From Brevinematales bacterium (GTDB taxonomy: Bacteria; Spirochaetota; Brevinematia; Brevinematales; Thermospiraceae), in assembly GCA_026417555.1 (NCBI GenBank), contig JAOADA010000001.1, positions 146,195 to 210,194 on the forward strand: a stretch of DNA of 64,000 nt, in the 5' to 3' direction. Under the pieces are notes generated by a model. It was not told the origin of the DNA. It searched no databases and saw nothing but the letters and a program-made list of their open reading frames with translations. Of this stretch, positions 21,589 to 27,792 are shown piece by piece. Numbering within the stretch: position 1 is the first letter of the stretch; each line of letters opens with the position of its first letter. A program made the position numbers and the translations under genes.

Positions 21589-22374
21589 ATGAGGAAAAAG
21601 GCTTTGGGACTCAGTATTCTTAATCTTTTCTTGGTGGTGGCTACCATTGGGGTGAATGTGTTGGCCAATGCTCTTCCCCTGAATGGGAAAAACACAGGTG
21701 TGCTTTCTGATCAATATCCGAACCTTTTTGTTCCGGCAGGACTCACTTTTTCTATCTGGGGATTGATTTATGTTCTCTTTCTTGTGTATGTGGGGTATCA
21801 TCTTGTGGTTTCTCTTCGTGATGATAGACAGGCTGAGAATTATGTTCCTTCTCAAGTGGCTTTTGCCCTGTCATGTCTTCTGAACATGGGCTGGATTTTC
21901 GCTTGGCATTATGAACAGGTTGGGCTTTCGGTTCTTATCATGATAGCGCTTTTGTTGACACTTCTTTTTATTTTTACTTTTCAGCGAAGGCAAAAGATCT
22001 ATGGGCAGATTGGTCTTGCTGCTGTGATTCCCATAGATGTGTATACAGGCTGGATCACTGTAGCCACCATTGCAAATGTCACAGCGTGGCTTGTCCACGT
22101 GGGATGGAATGGTTTTGGAATATCCCCTGATGTGTGGACAATGCTTATGATTTCTGTAGGGGCCATCGTAGGGGTGTTGGTGCTTCTTCGTTATCAAGCA
22201 CTTGCGTATGGGGCTGTGATTCTCTGGGCTTATATAGGGATTATTCTGAAGCGTTCAGCCACTATGCCTGTGTATCAAAATGTTATTGTGACAACGTGGA
22301 TAGCGATCGGAGTGATTTCTCTGATGATGTTACAAGCCACTTTTGTTCTTTGGAGAACCAAAAGAAGGACCTAA
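21589..22374 (+). CDS. Tryptophan-rich (TspO/MBR-like) membrane protein
   Basis: A 261-residue protein made almost wholly of hydrophobic helices (about seven). The N-terminal part NVLANALPLNGKNTGVLSDQYPNLFVPAGLTFSIWGLIYVLFL is the signature of the longer bacterial proteins annotated as tryptophan-rich sensory protein; LNMGWIFAWHYEQVGLSVLIM and VYTGWITVATIANVTAW follow. TspO relatives bind porphyrins or other tetrapyrroles and modulate membrane processes, but the role of the long form is not established. AGGAGG lies upstream of ATG 21589. It is a single-gene unit with a consensus promoter. Confidence 0.8.
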   Translation: MRKKALGLSILNLFLVVATIGVNVLANALPLNGKNTGVLSDQYPNLFVPAGLTFSIWGLIYVLFLVYVGYHLVVSLRDDRQAENYVPSQVAFALSCLLNMGWIFAWHYEQVGLSVLIMIALLLTLLFIFTFQRRQKIYGQIGLAAVIPIDVYTGWITVATIANVTAWLVHVGWNGFGISPDVWTMLMISVGAIVGVLVLLRYQALAYGAVILWAYIGIILKRSATMPVYQNVIVTTWIAIGVISLMMLQATFVLWRTKRRT

Positions 22375-22594: not shown

Positions 22595-24664
22595 ATGAAA
22601 CGAGGGTGGTTTCTTTGGCTGTGGTGGGTGGGTATAGGTGCTGTCTTGTATGCGGGTGGGGGTACTTTGGACATCAGCCAAACAGATTGGCAGAGAGGGC
22701 GTACCGTTCGTCTCTCGGGGGAGTGGCTTTTTTATCCTTTTCAACTTTTGGATCCTGCGACGACACGGTGGGAAGATCATGAGTCCTTGATTATCAAAGT
22801 GCCGGATTCGTGGCATAGGTACAGCTGGAAGGGAAAACCTCTTCCCGCGTATGGGTATGGGACATATCGTTTGGTGATCTTTTCGACGGATGAGCCACTT
22901 TTGTTGGGACTTCGTGTTCCTTTTTTGACGAGTGCCTACAGCCTGTATATCAATGGAAAGCATATGCTCTCGGAGGGGAAAGTAGGTACCAATCGAGAAT
23001 CCTACATTCCTCATATGGTGCCACGCTATGTCACCTTTTCTAATAGTGCTATTCTTGAGCTTGTGGTCCAGATTGCCAACTTTTATGACAATAAAGGGGG
23101 GATGTACAATACTATTGAACTTGGGCTCTGGGATACTATCCATGCGAGGCGCAATCTCAATATCGCTATAGATATTTTCCTGGTGGGGGCCTTGTTTATC
23201 ATGGCGGTGTATCACTTGGCTTTGTTTACCCTTCAAAGAAAAGAAAAGGGAATTCTTTATTTTTCTTTGTTGGCTTTAACGCTGGCTATACGAACTCTTA
23301 TCAATCATGAGTGTTTGTTTCATTTGTATATTTACGATCTTTCGTGGAGAACTTCTATTCGGATGGATTTTGTTTTGGTTAATCTCATCACCATATGGGT
23401 GGTAGCGTTTATGCGAACGGTGTTTTCTTCTTCTTGGTACTCTCGTCTTCTCAAATATGCTATTGGATTTTATGGAGTGCTGACGGTGATTGATCTTGTA
23501 TTTCCGGAAGAGGTTTATTTTCATACGCAAATGGTCTACATCTGGGTAACTGTTCCTTTGGGATTTTCTCTTTTGGTGGCTTTGGTGAGAGAAGTGTTTC
23601 GTCATAATGCGGAAGCCGGCTTACTTTTGATGGGGTTTTCTGCTTTCTTTCTGACAGCCTTGAATGATATCTTTTATGCTATTCAGAAATTTAATGTTTT
23701 TGAGATTTATCTGACACCGTTTGGTCAGCTTGTTTTTATCTTTTTTCAGGCTTTTGTGTTGTCACGCCGTTTTTCTGTAGCTTACCAAACCTCTGAAAGA
23801 CTCAAACACAATCTCGAAGAAGAGGTCAAGCGTCAAACCATCGAACTCCTCAGTGAGAAGAATAAACTCCTTCAGAAAAATCATATGATTCAGGAGGAAT
23901 TGGAGCTTGCTCGTCAGATCCAACTTCAGTTTATCCCCTCGATTCCACCAGCTCATAATTTTGCGTTTTACTTTCATCCGATGATTCAGGTGGGAGGGGA
24001 TTTTTTTGATATTCATCAGATTGATACCCACAAGTGGGGGATTTTTATTAGTGATGTGTCTGGGCATGGGGTTCCTGCGGCTTTTATTACTTCTCTTATT
24101 AAGAGTTATCTCTTGCAAACCCCTCATGTGCATGATCCGGAGAATCTTCTCTATGGTTTGAATGATTTTCTTTTTCCTTATCTTGCAGGGAATTTTGTTA
24201 CCTCCCTGTATCTTGTGTATGATGAGGATCAGGCTACTCTTTTGTACGCGAATGCAGGGCATTTGGATCCCCTTCTCATCATGTCGTCTGGGTCTATTTC
24301 TGCACTTCCGTGTTTGAAAAGAGGGGTGCCGCTTGGAATCCTCTCTCGCGAAGAGCTTTTTCTTATGGACAAAGGGTACAAGAATCACACCTACAAGTTC
24401 GAAGAGGGGAGATTGCTTCTTTTTACTGATGGGCTTATTGAGGCGATAAGCCAACGGCTCCATGTGCCTTTTGAAGAGATTCTCTGGGGACTCCCCTGGA
24501 AGGATCTTTCTTCTCTTTCTGCTACCGAGATCGTGATGGCCATTGTTGACAATTTCAAGACCCATATCCAACTTGAAAATGTGATGGATGATATCTGTCT
24601 TTTGTGTATAGAACCGGTGGGTTCGTCTTTAGTATCATCATCCTTTTCGGAGGTGGTGAGGTGA
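22595..24664 (+). CDS. 7TM-DISM-type sensor with SpoIIE (PP2C) phosphatase output
   Basis: A 689-residue membrane sensor. Order: signal sequence, an extracytoplasmic beta-rich domain of the 7TMR-DISMED2 kind (about 25-185, RLSGEWLFYPFQLLDP and YGTYRLVIFS), about seven membrane helices (about 190-395), a coiled coil (about 400-455), and a SpoIIE-type PP2C domain (about 455-680). The metal-binding acidic residues are present in VGGDFFD (about 465-471), DVSGHGVPAAF (about 487) and NVMDDIC near the end. Such phosphatases usually dephosphorylate a STAS anti-anti-sigma protein. A kinase/STAS pair lies at 58751-59596. It is coupled (GTGA overlap) to a CBM48-like lipoprotein that might be a sensor partner. 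Confidence 0.9.
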   Translation: MKRGWFLWLWWVGIGAVLYAGGGTLDISQTDWQRGRTVRLSGEWLFYPFQLLDPATTRWEDHESLIIKVPDSWHRYSWKGKPLPAYGYGTYRLVIFSTDEPLLLGLRVPFLTSAYSLYINGKHMLSEGKVGTNRESYIPHMVPRYVTFSNSAILELVVQIANFYDNKGGMYNTIELGLWDTIHARRNLNIAIDIFLVGALFIMAVYHLALFTLQRKEKGILYFSLLALTLAIRTLINHECLFHLYIYDLSWRTSIRMDFVLVNLITIWVVAFMRTVFSSSWYSRLLKYAIGFYGVLTVIDLVFPEEVYFHTQMVYIWVTVPLGFSLLVALVREVFRHNAEAGLLLMGFSAFFLTALNDIFYAIQKFNVFEIYLTPFGQLVFIFFQAFVLSRRFSVAYQTSERLKHNLEEEVKRQTIELLSEKNKLLQKNHMIQEELELARQIQLQFIPSIPPAHNFAFYFHPMIQVGGDFFDIHQIDTHKWGIFISDVSGHGVPAAFITSLIKSYLLQTPHVHDPENLLYGLNDFLFPYLAGNFVTSLYLVYDEDQATLLYANAGHLDPLLIMSSGSISALPCLKRGVPLGILSREELFLMDKGYKNHTYKFEEGRLLLFTDGLIEAISQRLHVPFEEILWGLPWKDLSSLSATEIVMAIVDNFKTHIQLENVMDDICLLCIEPVGSSLVSSSFSEVVR

Positions 24665-25041
24665 AAAGGAAAAGCCTCTATTGGATTTGTGTGTTCTTTC
24701 TTGTGTTTGGGTGTGAGAAAGCTCAAAAACAAGAGGCCCAAGGGCCGAAACCAGGGGTTTTTGTGTTGGGGAGTATTGTGCTTTTTGTGTATAGGGCACC
24801 CTCGAACCATATCACCAATGTGGCTCTCACAGGGGATTTTTTTGGATGGAAGAGGGAGGGGTTCCCTTTATCCTATGATCCAGCCGTAAATCTTTGGCGT
24901 ATCTCCCTTGCTCTTGAGCCGGGAATGTACCAGTACAAGTACATCCTCAATGGTAGTGTCTGGACCAATGATCCGTATAATCCATCTGTTTCTCCTGATG
25001 GAAAAGGAGGCCTCAATTCTGTCCTTCAGGTAAAACCGTAA
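24661..25041 (+). CDS. Second CBM48-like lipoprotein, coupled to the SpoIIE sensor
   Basis: A 126-residue lipoprotein with signal peptide ending VFGCEK and one CBM48/AMPK-type beta-sandwich: VALTGDFFGWKREGFPL, NLWRISLALEPGMYQYKYIL, WTNDPYNPSVSPDGKGGLNS. It is clearly homologous to the protein at 18363-18767. The GTG start at 24661 overlaps the upstream stop (GTGA) and GGAGG lies upstream; an in-frame ATG at 24604 lies inside the sensor gene without a ribosome site. Linkage to a 7TM sensor suggests glucan sensing, which is an inference. A 13-bp hairpin follows the stop. Confidence 0.8.
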   Translation: MKRKSLYWICVFFLVFGCEKAQKQEAQGPKPGVFVLGSIVLFVYRAPSNHITNVALTGDFFGWKREGFPLSYDPAVNLWRISLALEPGMYQYKYILNGSVWTNDPYNPSVSPDGKGGLNSVLQVKP

Positions 25042-25099: not shown

Positions 25100-26389
25100 T
25101 TATATATGGAGAACGAAGTACCGTATATAGAGGTATGCGGAAGAAATTATCAGGCTTGTCAGTGTGTAGAGAACCCCGTATTTTGTAAACTCCCAAAAGC
25201 TTATATGGATGCCGCTCTTTTTGGCAAGGCCTACGCTCACTACGTTAGCTGAGGCACCGACGAGAGTGCCATTTCCTCCGAGACATGCTCCAAGAGCCAG
25301 TGACCACCATACAGGCATGAGGGCATCAGGTCCAATGGTTTGGCCCATTTCCTTTATCAGGGGTATCATGGTAGCGACGTAGGGGATGTTGTCTACGACA
25401 GCTGAAAGAACACCAGAGACCCAGACAAGAAAGAGTGAGGTAAGGGGGACATCTCCGTGTGTCAATTGTATCACGCGGGAGGCAAGCACCCTCATCACTC
25501 CCACCTCTACAAGTCCTCCGACGAGGATAAAAAGCCCAATAAAGAAAAGGATGGTTCCCCACTCGACCTCGTGAAGGAGATGGTCAATCTCGTGCGGGGT
25601 AGCAAGAAGCATAAGAAGAGAAGCTCCAAAAAGGGCAATCATGGAGGGTTCAAGGTTGAGAATTCCATGGAGGAAAAAACCCGCGATAACAAGACCAAGA
25701 ATAGAGAGGGATTTTGCCATCAAGAGGGGATTGGTGAGGACTTTCTTTTCGTCAAAACTCATGATACGGGCTCGTTTTTCGTTGGTGACATGCATCTGTT
25801 TGTGAAAAAGCATCCATTGGAATACAAAAAGAACAACAATCAAGAGAAGTACAACGGGAGTGAGATGGATGAGGAAGCTATTGAAAGATAACCCGCTCGC
25901 ACTGGCGATCATAATGTTGGGGGGATCACCAATCAGAGTGGCTGTACCTCCGACGTTAGATGCCATAGCTAGAGAGACAATATAGGGGACAGGAGAAATC
26001 TCAAGTTCATTCGCAATCAGGATAGCCACAGGGACCAAGATCAATACTGTGGTGACATTGTCCAAAAACGCCGAGAAGAAAGCCGTCACCAAAGACAAGA
26101 GGATCAGGATAGTCATAGGATTTCCCCGCGCTAGTTTGGCCATTTTGATCGCTACGTATTGAAAAACGCCTGTTTGTTTGGTGATAGCCACAATGATCAT
26201 CATACTCACAAGCAGAAAAATGACGTTCCAGTCTATTGAGGCAAATATCTTTTCTCCCTCAAGAAAGTGAAAGAGGGCAAAGAGCCCTGCTCCAAAAAGA
26301 GCAAGTACTGTTTTGTTGATCTTTTCTGTTGAAATTGCAACATACATCACAGCAAAAAGCCCGAGTACGGTCCACATTATCCCTGTCAT
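25100..26389 (-). CDS. ArsB/NhaD-family ion transporter
   Basis: A 429-residue protein with about 11-12 membrane helices. Signature parts of the ArsB/NhaD superfamily are present: FLDNVTTVLILVPVAI, ASNVGGTATLIGDPPNIMIA, and in the second half VDNIPYVATMIPLI and LGACLGGNGTLVGASANVV. Members exchange Na+ for H+ (NhaD) or export arsenite (ArsB), or carry organic anions; no arsenic genes are nearby, so a sodium/proton or anion role is favoured. It starts 3 bases after an EIIA-CBS protein, an arrangement suggesting regulation of transport by a nucleotide-binding CBS pair. Confidence 0.87.
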   Translation of the reverse strand: MTGIMWTVLGLFAVMYVAISTEKINKTVLALFGAGLFALFHFLEGEKIFASIDWNVIFLLVSMMIIVAITKQTGVFQYVAIKMAKLARGNPMTILILLSLVTAFFSAFLDNVTTVLILVPVAILIANELEISPVPYIVSLAMASNVGGTATLIGDPPNIMIASASGLSFNSFLIHLTPVVLLLIVVLFVFQWMLFHKQMHVTNEKRARIMSFDEKKVLTNPLLMAKSLSILGLVIAGFFLHGILNLEPSMIALFGASLLMLLATPHEIDHLLHEVEWGTILFFIGLFILVGGLVEVGVMRVLASRVIQLTHGDVPLTSLFLVWVSGVLSAVVDNIPYVATMIPLIKEMGQTIGPDALMPVWWSLALGACLGGNGTLVGASANVVSVGLAKKSGIHISFWEFTKYGVLYTLTSLIISSAYLYIRYFVLHI

Positions 26390-26392
26390 GGC

Positions 26393-27292
26393 TTATCTCC
26401 TTAGGACTTTGTTCAACATGTCCATATAACTGACTATACCTACTATCTTGTCTTTTTCTGCAACAGGAAGATGGCGTCGCCTATGGTTGGTAAACTCAAA
26501 AACAGCCTCAACAATGCTGGTATCTGGAGAAAGAACCACCTCTGGTTTGCGCATAATCTGGCGGACAAGAATGTTTTTCTCATGTTTCAGAAGTTCCTCA
26601 AAAGGCTCAAAAGAAGAGAGAAAACTCATTGTCGGAAGGGCCGAAGTGTAGGCAGGCATCCCTATACGCATGATGTCAATCATGTTGATTTCAGCGATAA
26701 ATTGGTGGTTTTTGTTTACGACAGGCGCATAGCTCAACTGATACTTGACAAACAAATCGAGAACCTCTTCGAGATTCTGGTCCTCTCGGACCGTGTGCAC
26801 CTCTGTGGACATGATGTCTCGGAGGGTGAGGTCTTTTTTGATACGGACGTTCTTTTCGTCCAAAAGACGACAAAACGTCTCAAAATCTAGACCTTCACAC
26901 ATTTTTTGAGAGCAATCTTTCTCAGAGGCTATGGAAGAGAGGGCTGAAAGGGCGTTGAGGTAGAGCGTCGAACGACTGGGACCAGTGAGGATGAGAAAAA
27001 CACCCTTGACGTCTGTATTTTCTACTCGAAGAGGTGTCTTGAGAAAGGACACCCCAATAATGAGGTCCTCGAGATCAGCGATGCGAAAATGGGGTACCCA
27101 GAAACACTCTCCCAAGAGCGTGGCCCGATCTTTTTCTCTCTGGAGGATCTTTTGGATGATCTCGTGTTCGTCAATGGAGAGAGAGAATTCATGAGAGATC
27201 CCTTTGATCATTTTTTCCAGCAAAAGACGTGTGTCAGATACTTCCATTTTTGTCCAGTACAGCTCTGGTTGAAGAAAACTCGAAAAGAGCAT
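26393..27292 (-). CDS. PTS EIIA-like domain fused to a CBS pair
   Basis: A 299-residue cytoplasmic protein. Residues about 1-150 resemble a fructose/nitrogen-type PTS EIIA domain (LLEKMI, EHEIIQKILQREKDRATLLGECFWVPHFRI), with His68 at the position phosphorylated in true EIIA proteins, and GVFLILTGPSR further on. Two CBS domains follow (about 157-212, with DIMSTEVHTVREDQNLEEVLDLF, and 243-298, with QIMRKPEVVLSPDTSIVEAV), likely an adenine-nucleotide or ion-strength sensor. It sits between a PQ-loop-like protein (1-base gap) and the transporter (3-base gap), so it probably regulates the transporter. Whether His68 is phosphorylated is unknown. Confidence 0.82.
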   Translation of the reverse strand: MLFSSFLQPELYWTKMEVSDTRLLLEKMIKGISHEFSLSIDEHEIIQKILQREKDRATLLGECFWVPHFRIADLEDLIIGVSFLKTPLRVENTDVKGVFLILTGPSRSTLYLNALSALSSIASEKDCSQKMCEGLDFETFCRLLDEKNVRIKKDLTLRDIMSTEVHTVREDQNLEEVLDLFVKYQLSYAPVVNKNHQFIAEINMIDIMRIGMPAYTSALPTMSFLSSFEPFEELLKHEKNILVRQIMRKPEVVLSPDTSIVEAVFEFTNHRRRHLPVAEKDKIVGIVSYMDMLNKVLRR

Positions 27293-27293
27293 A

Positions 27294-27557
27294 CTATTCC
27301 TCCTTCTGAAGAGATTGGTTACGGTAATACAATCCTATATCCATACTCACCATGGCCAGATTGAGGATATAAAAGGCTAACGCATAGTCAAGCCCTCGGA
27401 CAAACTTGTTGATAATACCAAAGATATAACCGAGCCATACCACCCAGAGAAAGGTTACACTCTTGCCGGCTGTAGAACGAGAGGTATAAGAGCGATAAAG
27501 GGAAAACGGCCAGGCTGCCCCAAAACAGAGAAGCATGAGCACTTCAAAGAGAGCCAT
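27294..27557 (-). CDS. Small PQ-loop/SemiSWEET-like membrane protein
   Basis: An 87-residue protein with three hydrophobic helices. The stretch CFGAAWPFSLYRSYTSRSTAGKS followed by LWVVWLGYIFGII and AFYILNLAMVSMDIGLYYRN resembles the small PQ-loop proteins, in which a proline-bearing first helix is followed by a conserved Ser/Thr loop. SemiSWEETs of similar size move sugars as dimers, but the PQ motif itself is WPF here. It is first in the operon with the EIIA-CBS protein and the NhaD/ArsB-type transporter. GAGGTAGTG precedes the ATG. Confidence 0.7.
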   Translation of the reverse strand: MALFEVLMLLCFGAAWPFSLYRSYTSRSTAGKSVTFLWVVWLGYIFGIINKFVRGLDYALAFYILNLAMVSMDIGLYYRNQSLQKEE

Positions 27558-27588
27558 GAACTACACTACCTCAGATCAGAATGCCCTC

Positions 27589-27617
27589 AGTGTAAAGCAT
27601 AGAAAAGAAAAATGCAA
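27589..27617 (-). promoter_or_regulatory. Promoter of the PQ-loop/EIIA-CBS/transporter operon
   Basis: Minus strand: TTGCAT (27617-27612), 17-base spacer, TACACT (27594-27589), about 31 bases before the ATG. Confidence 0.7.
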
Positions 27618-27792
27618 AAAATCTTGGTTATTGTTTTCATGGTCCAGAGACATTCTTTTCCCTTCTGGAGATTAGCATAATAGAGGTTTTTCTCCACTCT
27701 TCTCACAAAGGGGCCAAAGTGGGTGTATTTTTGGATTCAAAGATTGGTATTTTTTTCCGATACTATCTCAAGATATCCACAAGGAGACGGAT

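Follow-up and report, generated by a model that had tools for sequence, protein, structure and literature searches.

A protein that joins a PTS EIIA domain to a pair of CBS domains is encoded directly upstream of an ion-type transporter in a genome of the Brevinematales, and these two genes are kept together in many spirochaete families as well as in some other phyla. Rather probably, the EIIA-CBS protein regulates a single ion or anion transporter and is itself controlled by both PTS phosphorylation and adenine nucleotides. The initial annotation of this DNA had proposed an EIIA-CBS regulator tied to an ion-type transporter; that proposal is supported by the conservation of the pair, by an invariant histidine (His68) in the EIIA domain, and by the presence of genes for EI, HPr, and HprK in the genome.

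The window (the whole stretch of 64,000 nucleotides that was analysed) belongs to a genome of 2.0 Mb; of the named relatives in the collection, the nearest is L060, a Brevinematales MAG with 78% identity. On its minus strand, three co-directional open reading frames lie between 25100 and 27557 in the order PQ-loop-like protein, EIIA-CBS protein, and transporter, separated by gaps of 1 and 3 bases (Table 1), which is the arrangement that had been described for them. The 'one good promoter' of that description was not recovered: at a threshold of at least 9/12, no sigma-70-like site is present between the start codon and position 27617, and none that is convincing is present in the entire divergent intergenic region. 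The closest sigma-70-like site on the operon strand (27706-27677) is a match of a kind expected to arise by chance alone. No Rfam element was matched near the operon; thus, a riboswitch clue to the substrate was not obtained.

Table 1. Features of the operon in the window and EIIA-transporter fusions in other spirochaetes
Feature	Position	Strand	Evidence
SemiSWEET/PQ-loop-fold three-helix protein, 87 aa	27294..27557	-	Fold search; distribution and neighbours
EIIA-CBS-CBS regulatory protein (predicted role), 299 aa	26393..27292	-	Pfam; PDB sequence matches; AlphaFold model
His68 codon (CAT on minus strand), predicted phosphorylation site, PHxR motif	27089..27091	-	Invariant in 37 homologues
CitMHS/ion-transporter superfamily carrier, 429 aa	25100..26389	-	Pfam, NCBIfam, alignment
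Divergent intergenic region, expected promoter site of operon	27558..27792	.	Sigma-70-like scan, Rfam
EIIA-CitMHS fusion, 647 aa, genome G045	L097:755-2695	-	
Amino-acid permease-EIIA fusion	L099:1894-3726	-	
Amino-acid permease-EIIA fusion	L102:1655-3481	-	
Na+/H+ exchanger-EIIA fusion	L101:1018-2712	-	
Na+/H+ exchanger-EIIA fusion	L104:1856-3682	-	
CNNM-CBS-EIIA fusion	L105:1539-3074	-	

The domain composition of the middle protein, which had been read as an EIIA-like domain with His68 fused to two CBS domains, was recovered by Pfam as a PTS_EIIA_2 domain at residues 6-146 (48.7 bits against a cut-off of 27; 1e-12) followed by two CBS stretches. Sequence searches of the PDB returned both PtsN and CBS proteins, with the PtsN structures covering the N-terminal half, and the AlphaFold model has a pLDDT of 90.9. 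The score against the NCBIfam PtsN equivalog TIGR01419 (36.5 bits) falls under the cut-off of 138.7. In an alignment of 37 homologues, His68 and Pro67 are present in all, Arg52 in 36, and Arg70 in 35. His68 lies 16 residues past Arg52, as in PtsN/EIIAMtl, and we take it to be the EIIA phosphorylation position; the initial annotation had asked for exactly this comparison. In the host genus, the loop preceding His68 reads CFWVPHFR, whereas most such loops are of the GIAIPH type, and acceptance of phosphate from HPr could therefore be altered.

The CBS pair spans approximately residues 152-298, and its two stretches together score 84.7 bits (5.4e-24). In Foldseek comparisons, the model matched many CBS-pair structures (best E 2.7e-12), several of which are bound to AMP, ADP, or ATP. 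In particular, CBS2 of the window protein carries the ribose-binding S/T-x-x-D motif as SYMD, whereas CBS1 is without it. Among the homologues, the motif in CBS2 is retained at S/T288 in 30/37 and at D291 in 28/37, being degenerate in about a quarter, and that of CBS1 is poor. As a c-di-AMP cyclase is encoded in the host genome, c-di-AMP is one candidate ligand of the CBS pair beside AMP, ADP, and ATP.

Searches of the genome also identified the enzymes from which His68 would receive its phosphate. EI (76.7 bits) and HPr (99.2 bits, with the GIHARPA and KSVM sites) are both encoded in the genome, which answers a question raised by the initial annotation, and so is the HPr kinase HprK. A second, PtsN-like EIIA, separate from the EIIA-CBS protein, is found at G000:C22:137354-137818. 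Since a domain search that covered PTS_EIIC and PTS_IIB detected neither in the host genome, the PTS of this organism looks, from its gene content, like a purely regulatory phosphorelay, and a sugar-PTS role for the EIIA domain was rejected within the same scope.

The transporter belongs, by sequence, to the CitMHS/ion-transporter superfamily (ArsB/NhaD/MamN-type), as it matches the Pfam CitMHS profile over all of its 336 positions (315 bits, 6.5e-94). It also exceeds the Pfam cut-off for ArsB (66.7 versus 22.2) and matches further Pfam families. The earlier label of an 'ArsB/NhaD-type' carrier is appropriate at the superfamily level only, given that the cut-offs of the curated NCBIfam models are all missed: MamN, the best of them, scores 199 bits (cut-off 500), the ArsB models 116 and 95 bits (cut-offs 457/415), and the NhaD models 66 and 52 bits (cut-offs 577 and 80). 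An assignment of the substrate from these family cut-offs was consequently rejected. In the alignment, most of the transporter subfamily retains two hairpin motifs, SNVGGTATLIGDPPN and GGNGTLVGASAN, together with DN motifs. The relatives whose structures have been solved comprise DASS anion symporters and an ArsB.

The association between the two genes was followed in a main sample of 100 genomes (the host genome and 99 relatives). Full-length EIIA-CBS proteins, which stand clearly apart over 393 genomes in that scores drop from 205 straight to 89 bits, occur in 13 of the 100, and an independent search for the transporter found its close subfamily (at least 286 bits; next best 200 bits) in exactly the same 13. 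In each of these, representing eight family-level groups, the transporter gene lies directly downstream of the EIIA-CBS gene on the same strand. A wider sample of the phylum gave the same picture with further adjacent pairs, and outside the phylum the pair was found on one contig each from Planctomycetota, Victivallaceae, and Lentisphaeria; the neighbourhood is therefore not peculiar to one strain, a possibility that the initial annotation had raised against itself. Two loci (L048 and L049) are without an adjacent transporter gene, which is encoded elsewhere in those genomes (G101 and G285), and at L054 the transporter beside EIIA-CBS is diverged (83 bits to CitMHS). Seventeen loci with different EIIA_2 or CBS matches (L016-L032) served as a control, and the transporter was near none of them. 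A mirror-tree correlation of r = 0.78 over 28 pairs, uncorrected for species phylogeny, fits joint inheritance. In genome G075, EIIA-CBS and the transporter are immediately preceded by the gene of a separate two-CBS protein (L015:943-1392, plus strand).

The association of EIIA-CBS with this transporter is not an exclusive one, as homologues with the same EPFEELLK segment occur in Calditrichaeota and Zixibacteria, for which no close relative of the transporter was found. There, the gene (L070:5261-6804 and L071:3976-5530) follows nuo-like genes and a gene for a DUF502 membrane protein, which possibly reflects a second role of the same regulator; a PhoU-like/phosphate-transporter-like gene pair lies nearby. 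The FEPFEELLK segment was considered as a site of contact with the transporter, a reading that is unsupported because the segment is also kept where the transporter is absent.

In other spirochaetes, EIIA_2 domains are fused to four types of non-PTS transporter (Table 1), with further amino-acid permease-EIIA (L103, L107) and Na+/H+ exchanger-EIIA (L106) fusions identified by alignment; the histidine is kept in all nine fused domains aligned. The CitMHS carrier fused to EIIA in G045 shares only about 30% identity with the window transporter. In the CNNM fusion, both types of regulatory domain that are combined in the window protein, EIIA and CBS, are joined to a transporter. A 973-aa CitMHS frame (G074:C16) was examined as another fusion and rejected, as it contains neither EIIA nor CBS.

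These associations suggest that the EIIA-CBS protein would be a soluble regulator dedicated to the transporter whose gene directly follows its own. A chain from PEP through EI and HPr would set the phosphorylation of His68, and HprK, which phosphorylates HPr on its serine, could draw HPr away from this chain. An adenine nucleotide would bind to the CBS pair (ATP, ADP, or AMP, or c-di-AMP), and both inputs together would decide whether EIIA-CBS contacts the transporter, inhibiting or activating it. By analogy with PtsN and YcgO, we infer that the unphosphorylated protein may be the binding, inhibiting form. Through EIIA-CBS, the cell probably turns the transporter on or off in line with its own energy status.

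An alternative is that the CBS pair regulates the transporter alone, in response to a nucleotide or c-di-AMP, and that EIIA is a docking domain in which phosphorylation of His68 is not the signal. Many transporters are indeed under tandem CBS control (reviewed in PMC10710835), and both the c-di-AMP cyclase and the unusual active-site loop of the host genus agree with such a view. However, the conservation of His68, Pro67, and Arg52 extends to diverged members, whereas the CBS motif is less conserved, and all enzymes of the phosphorelay are present even though no PTS permease domain was found; regulation by CBS alone therefore appears unlikely. The exact tracking of EIIA-CBS by the transporter subfamily in spirochaetes, also when the genes are apart, and the existence of a direct EIIA-transporter fusion argue against another possibility, namely that EIIA-CBS acts on a different target, a regulator of transcription or metabolism (compare PtsN acting on KdpD or on (p)ppGpp control), and lies next to the transporter because the two are used under the same condition. 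Despite the Calditrichaeota and Zixibacteria proteins that lack the transporter, and the several non-transporter targets described for PtsN (PMC13104625; PMC4848567), we regard such a target as distinctly unlikely.

It could also be supposed that all three genes form one three-component system, with the SemiSWEET-like protein as a subunit or as another permease that carries the same solute. The 87-aa protein has no NCBIfam match and no Pfam match over cut-off (its genus orthologue scores 14.5 bits against PQ-loop, versus 22), but its predicted structure (pLDDT 90) resembles SemiSWEET crystal structures with TM scores of 0.7-0.8 (Foldseek probability 1.00, E about 0.06-0.5). On the basis of this match, the label 'PQ-loop-like' given initially stands; the protein shares the three-helix bundle of the SemiSWEET/PQ-loop group, although sugar transport is not indicated. 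The small gaps and the gene order shared by all three genus members would agree with a three-part system. However, the PQ-loop gene is present in 57 of 198 genomes of the phylum and, among the loci examined, lies beside EIIA-CBS only in those three; 17 other PQ-loop loci have neither EIIA-CBS nor the transporter gene adjoining, and the pair exists elsewhere without a PQ-loop gene. The three-part set of the initial annotation is thereby reduced to two, the conserved EIIA-CBS/transporter pair. A three-component system is very improbable and was rejected; the PQ-loop gene is probably co-transcribed with the pair in the host and is not part of the conserved system.

The regulation favoured here, in which EIIA-CBS controls the adjacent transporter, has a working precedent. 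In E. coli, the K+/H+ antiporter YcgO is bound at its C-terminal region, and inhibited, by unphosphorylated PtsN, a contact that becomes weaker on phosphorylation (PMC11808508); TrkA and KdpD are further targets of PtsN (PMC13104625). Both PtsN (EIIANtr) and the window protein are EIIA_2-type proteins, the latter, too, being predicted to lie on a permease-less regulatory phosphorelay, and a likely mechanism, judged by this analogy, resembles that of PtsN and YcgO/CvrA, although EIIA-CBS is not a PtsN equivalog. In E. coli the relay controls a cation/proton antiporter (PMC11808508), whereas here the association is drawn from genes and fusions; moreover, YcgO belongs to the CPA1 antiporters and has its regulatory region at the C-terminus, while in the window EIIA is fused to a CBS pair and the neighbouring gene encodes its proposed partner, a CitMHS-superfamily carrier. 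In LacS lactose carriers, an HPr-phosphorylated PTS IIA domain likewise regulates a non-PTS secondary transporter (PMC10710835), but that domain is of the Glc family instead of the Fru/Ntr type and is covalently fused to a sugar carrier without CBS. Similarly, CBS pairs serve as nucleotide- or ion-dependent transport switches in MgtE, CNNM/CorC, and OpuA (PMC10710835), where they lie within the transporter and not, as here, on a separate soluble protein with EIIA. The carrier itself shares paired hairpin motifs with the MamN/ArsB/NhaD/CitMHS group and differs from MamN, ArsB, and NhaD in its position under their curated cut-offs. In the open literature searched, no description of an EIIA-CBS protein or of an EIIA-antiporter fusion was found. 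The earlier statement that no system with this exact set has been described agrees with that search, but its working principle is already known from PtsN and YcgO.

If the proposed regulation is correct, a phosphorylation signal and a nucleotide signal would meet in a single regulator of a secondary transporter. Some spirochaetes (Treponema denticola) keep EI, HPr, and HPr kinase though they are without PTS permeases (Gonzalez et al. 2005, as cited in PMC2937029). As for what this phosphorelay controls, the conserved EIIA-CBS/transporter pair, along with the EIIA domains joined to transporters of four kinds, offers a concrete, testable answer, namely that the relay sets ion and solute transport. 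More tentatively, a two-input soluble switch, combining histidine phosphorylation by a permease-less PTS with adenine-nucleotide binding by CBS domains, may gate one specific subfamily of ion transporters, both in spirochaetes and in some other phyla, and the regulatory PTS of spirochaetes may mainly control several kinds of non-PTS transporter via separate or fused EIIA domains; this generalization is conceivable, with the odds somewhat against it.

The surroundings of the operon in the window include three further genes on the plus strand. A membrane signalling protein, in which a 7TMR-DISM receptor is fused to a SpoIIE-type phosphatase, is encoded near the operon at 22595-24664. A predicted multi-helix membrane protein of 261 aa at 21589-22374 has no Pfam or NCBIfam match and, judged by eye, resembles a TspO-type protein. 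Convergent with the transporter gene, the reading frame at 24604-25041 encodes a small protein, possibly a lipoprotein, with an AMPK1_CBM glycogen-recognition domain (38 bits).
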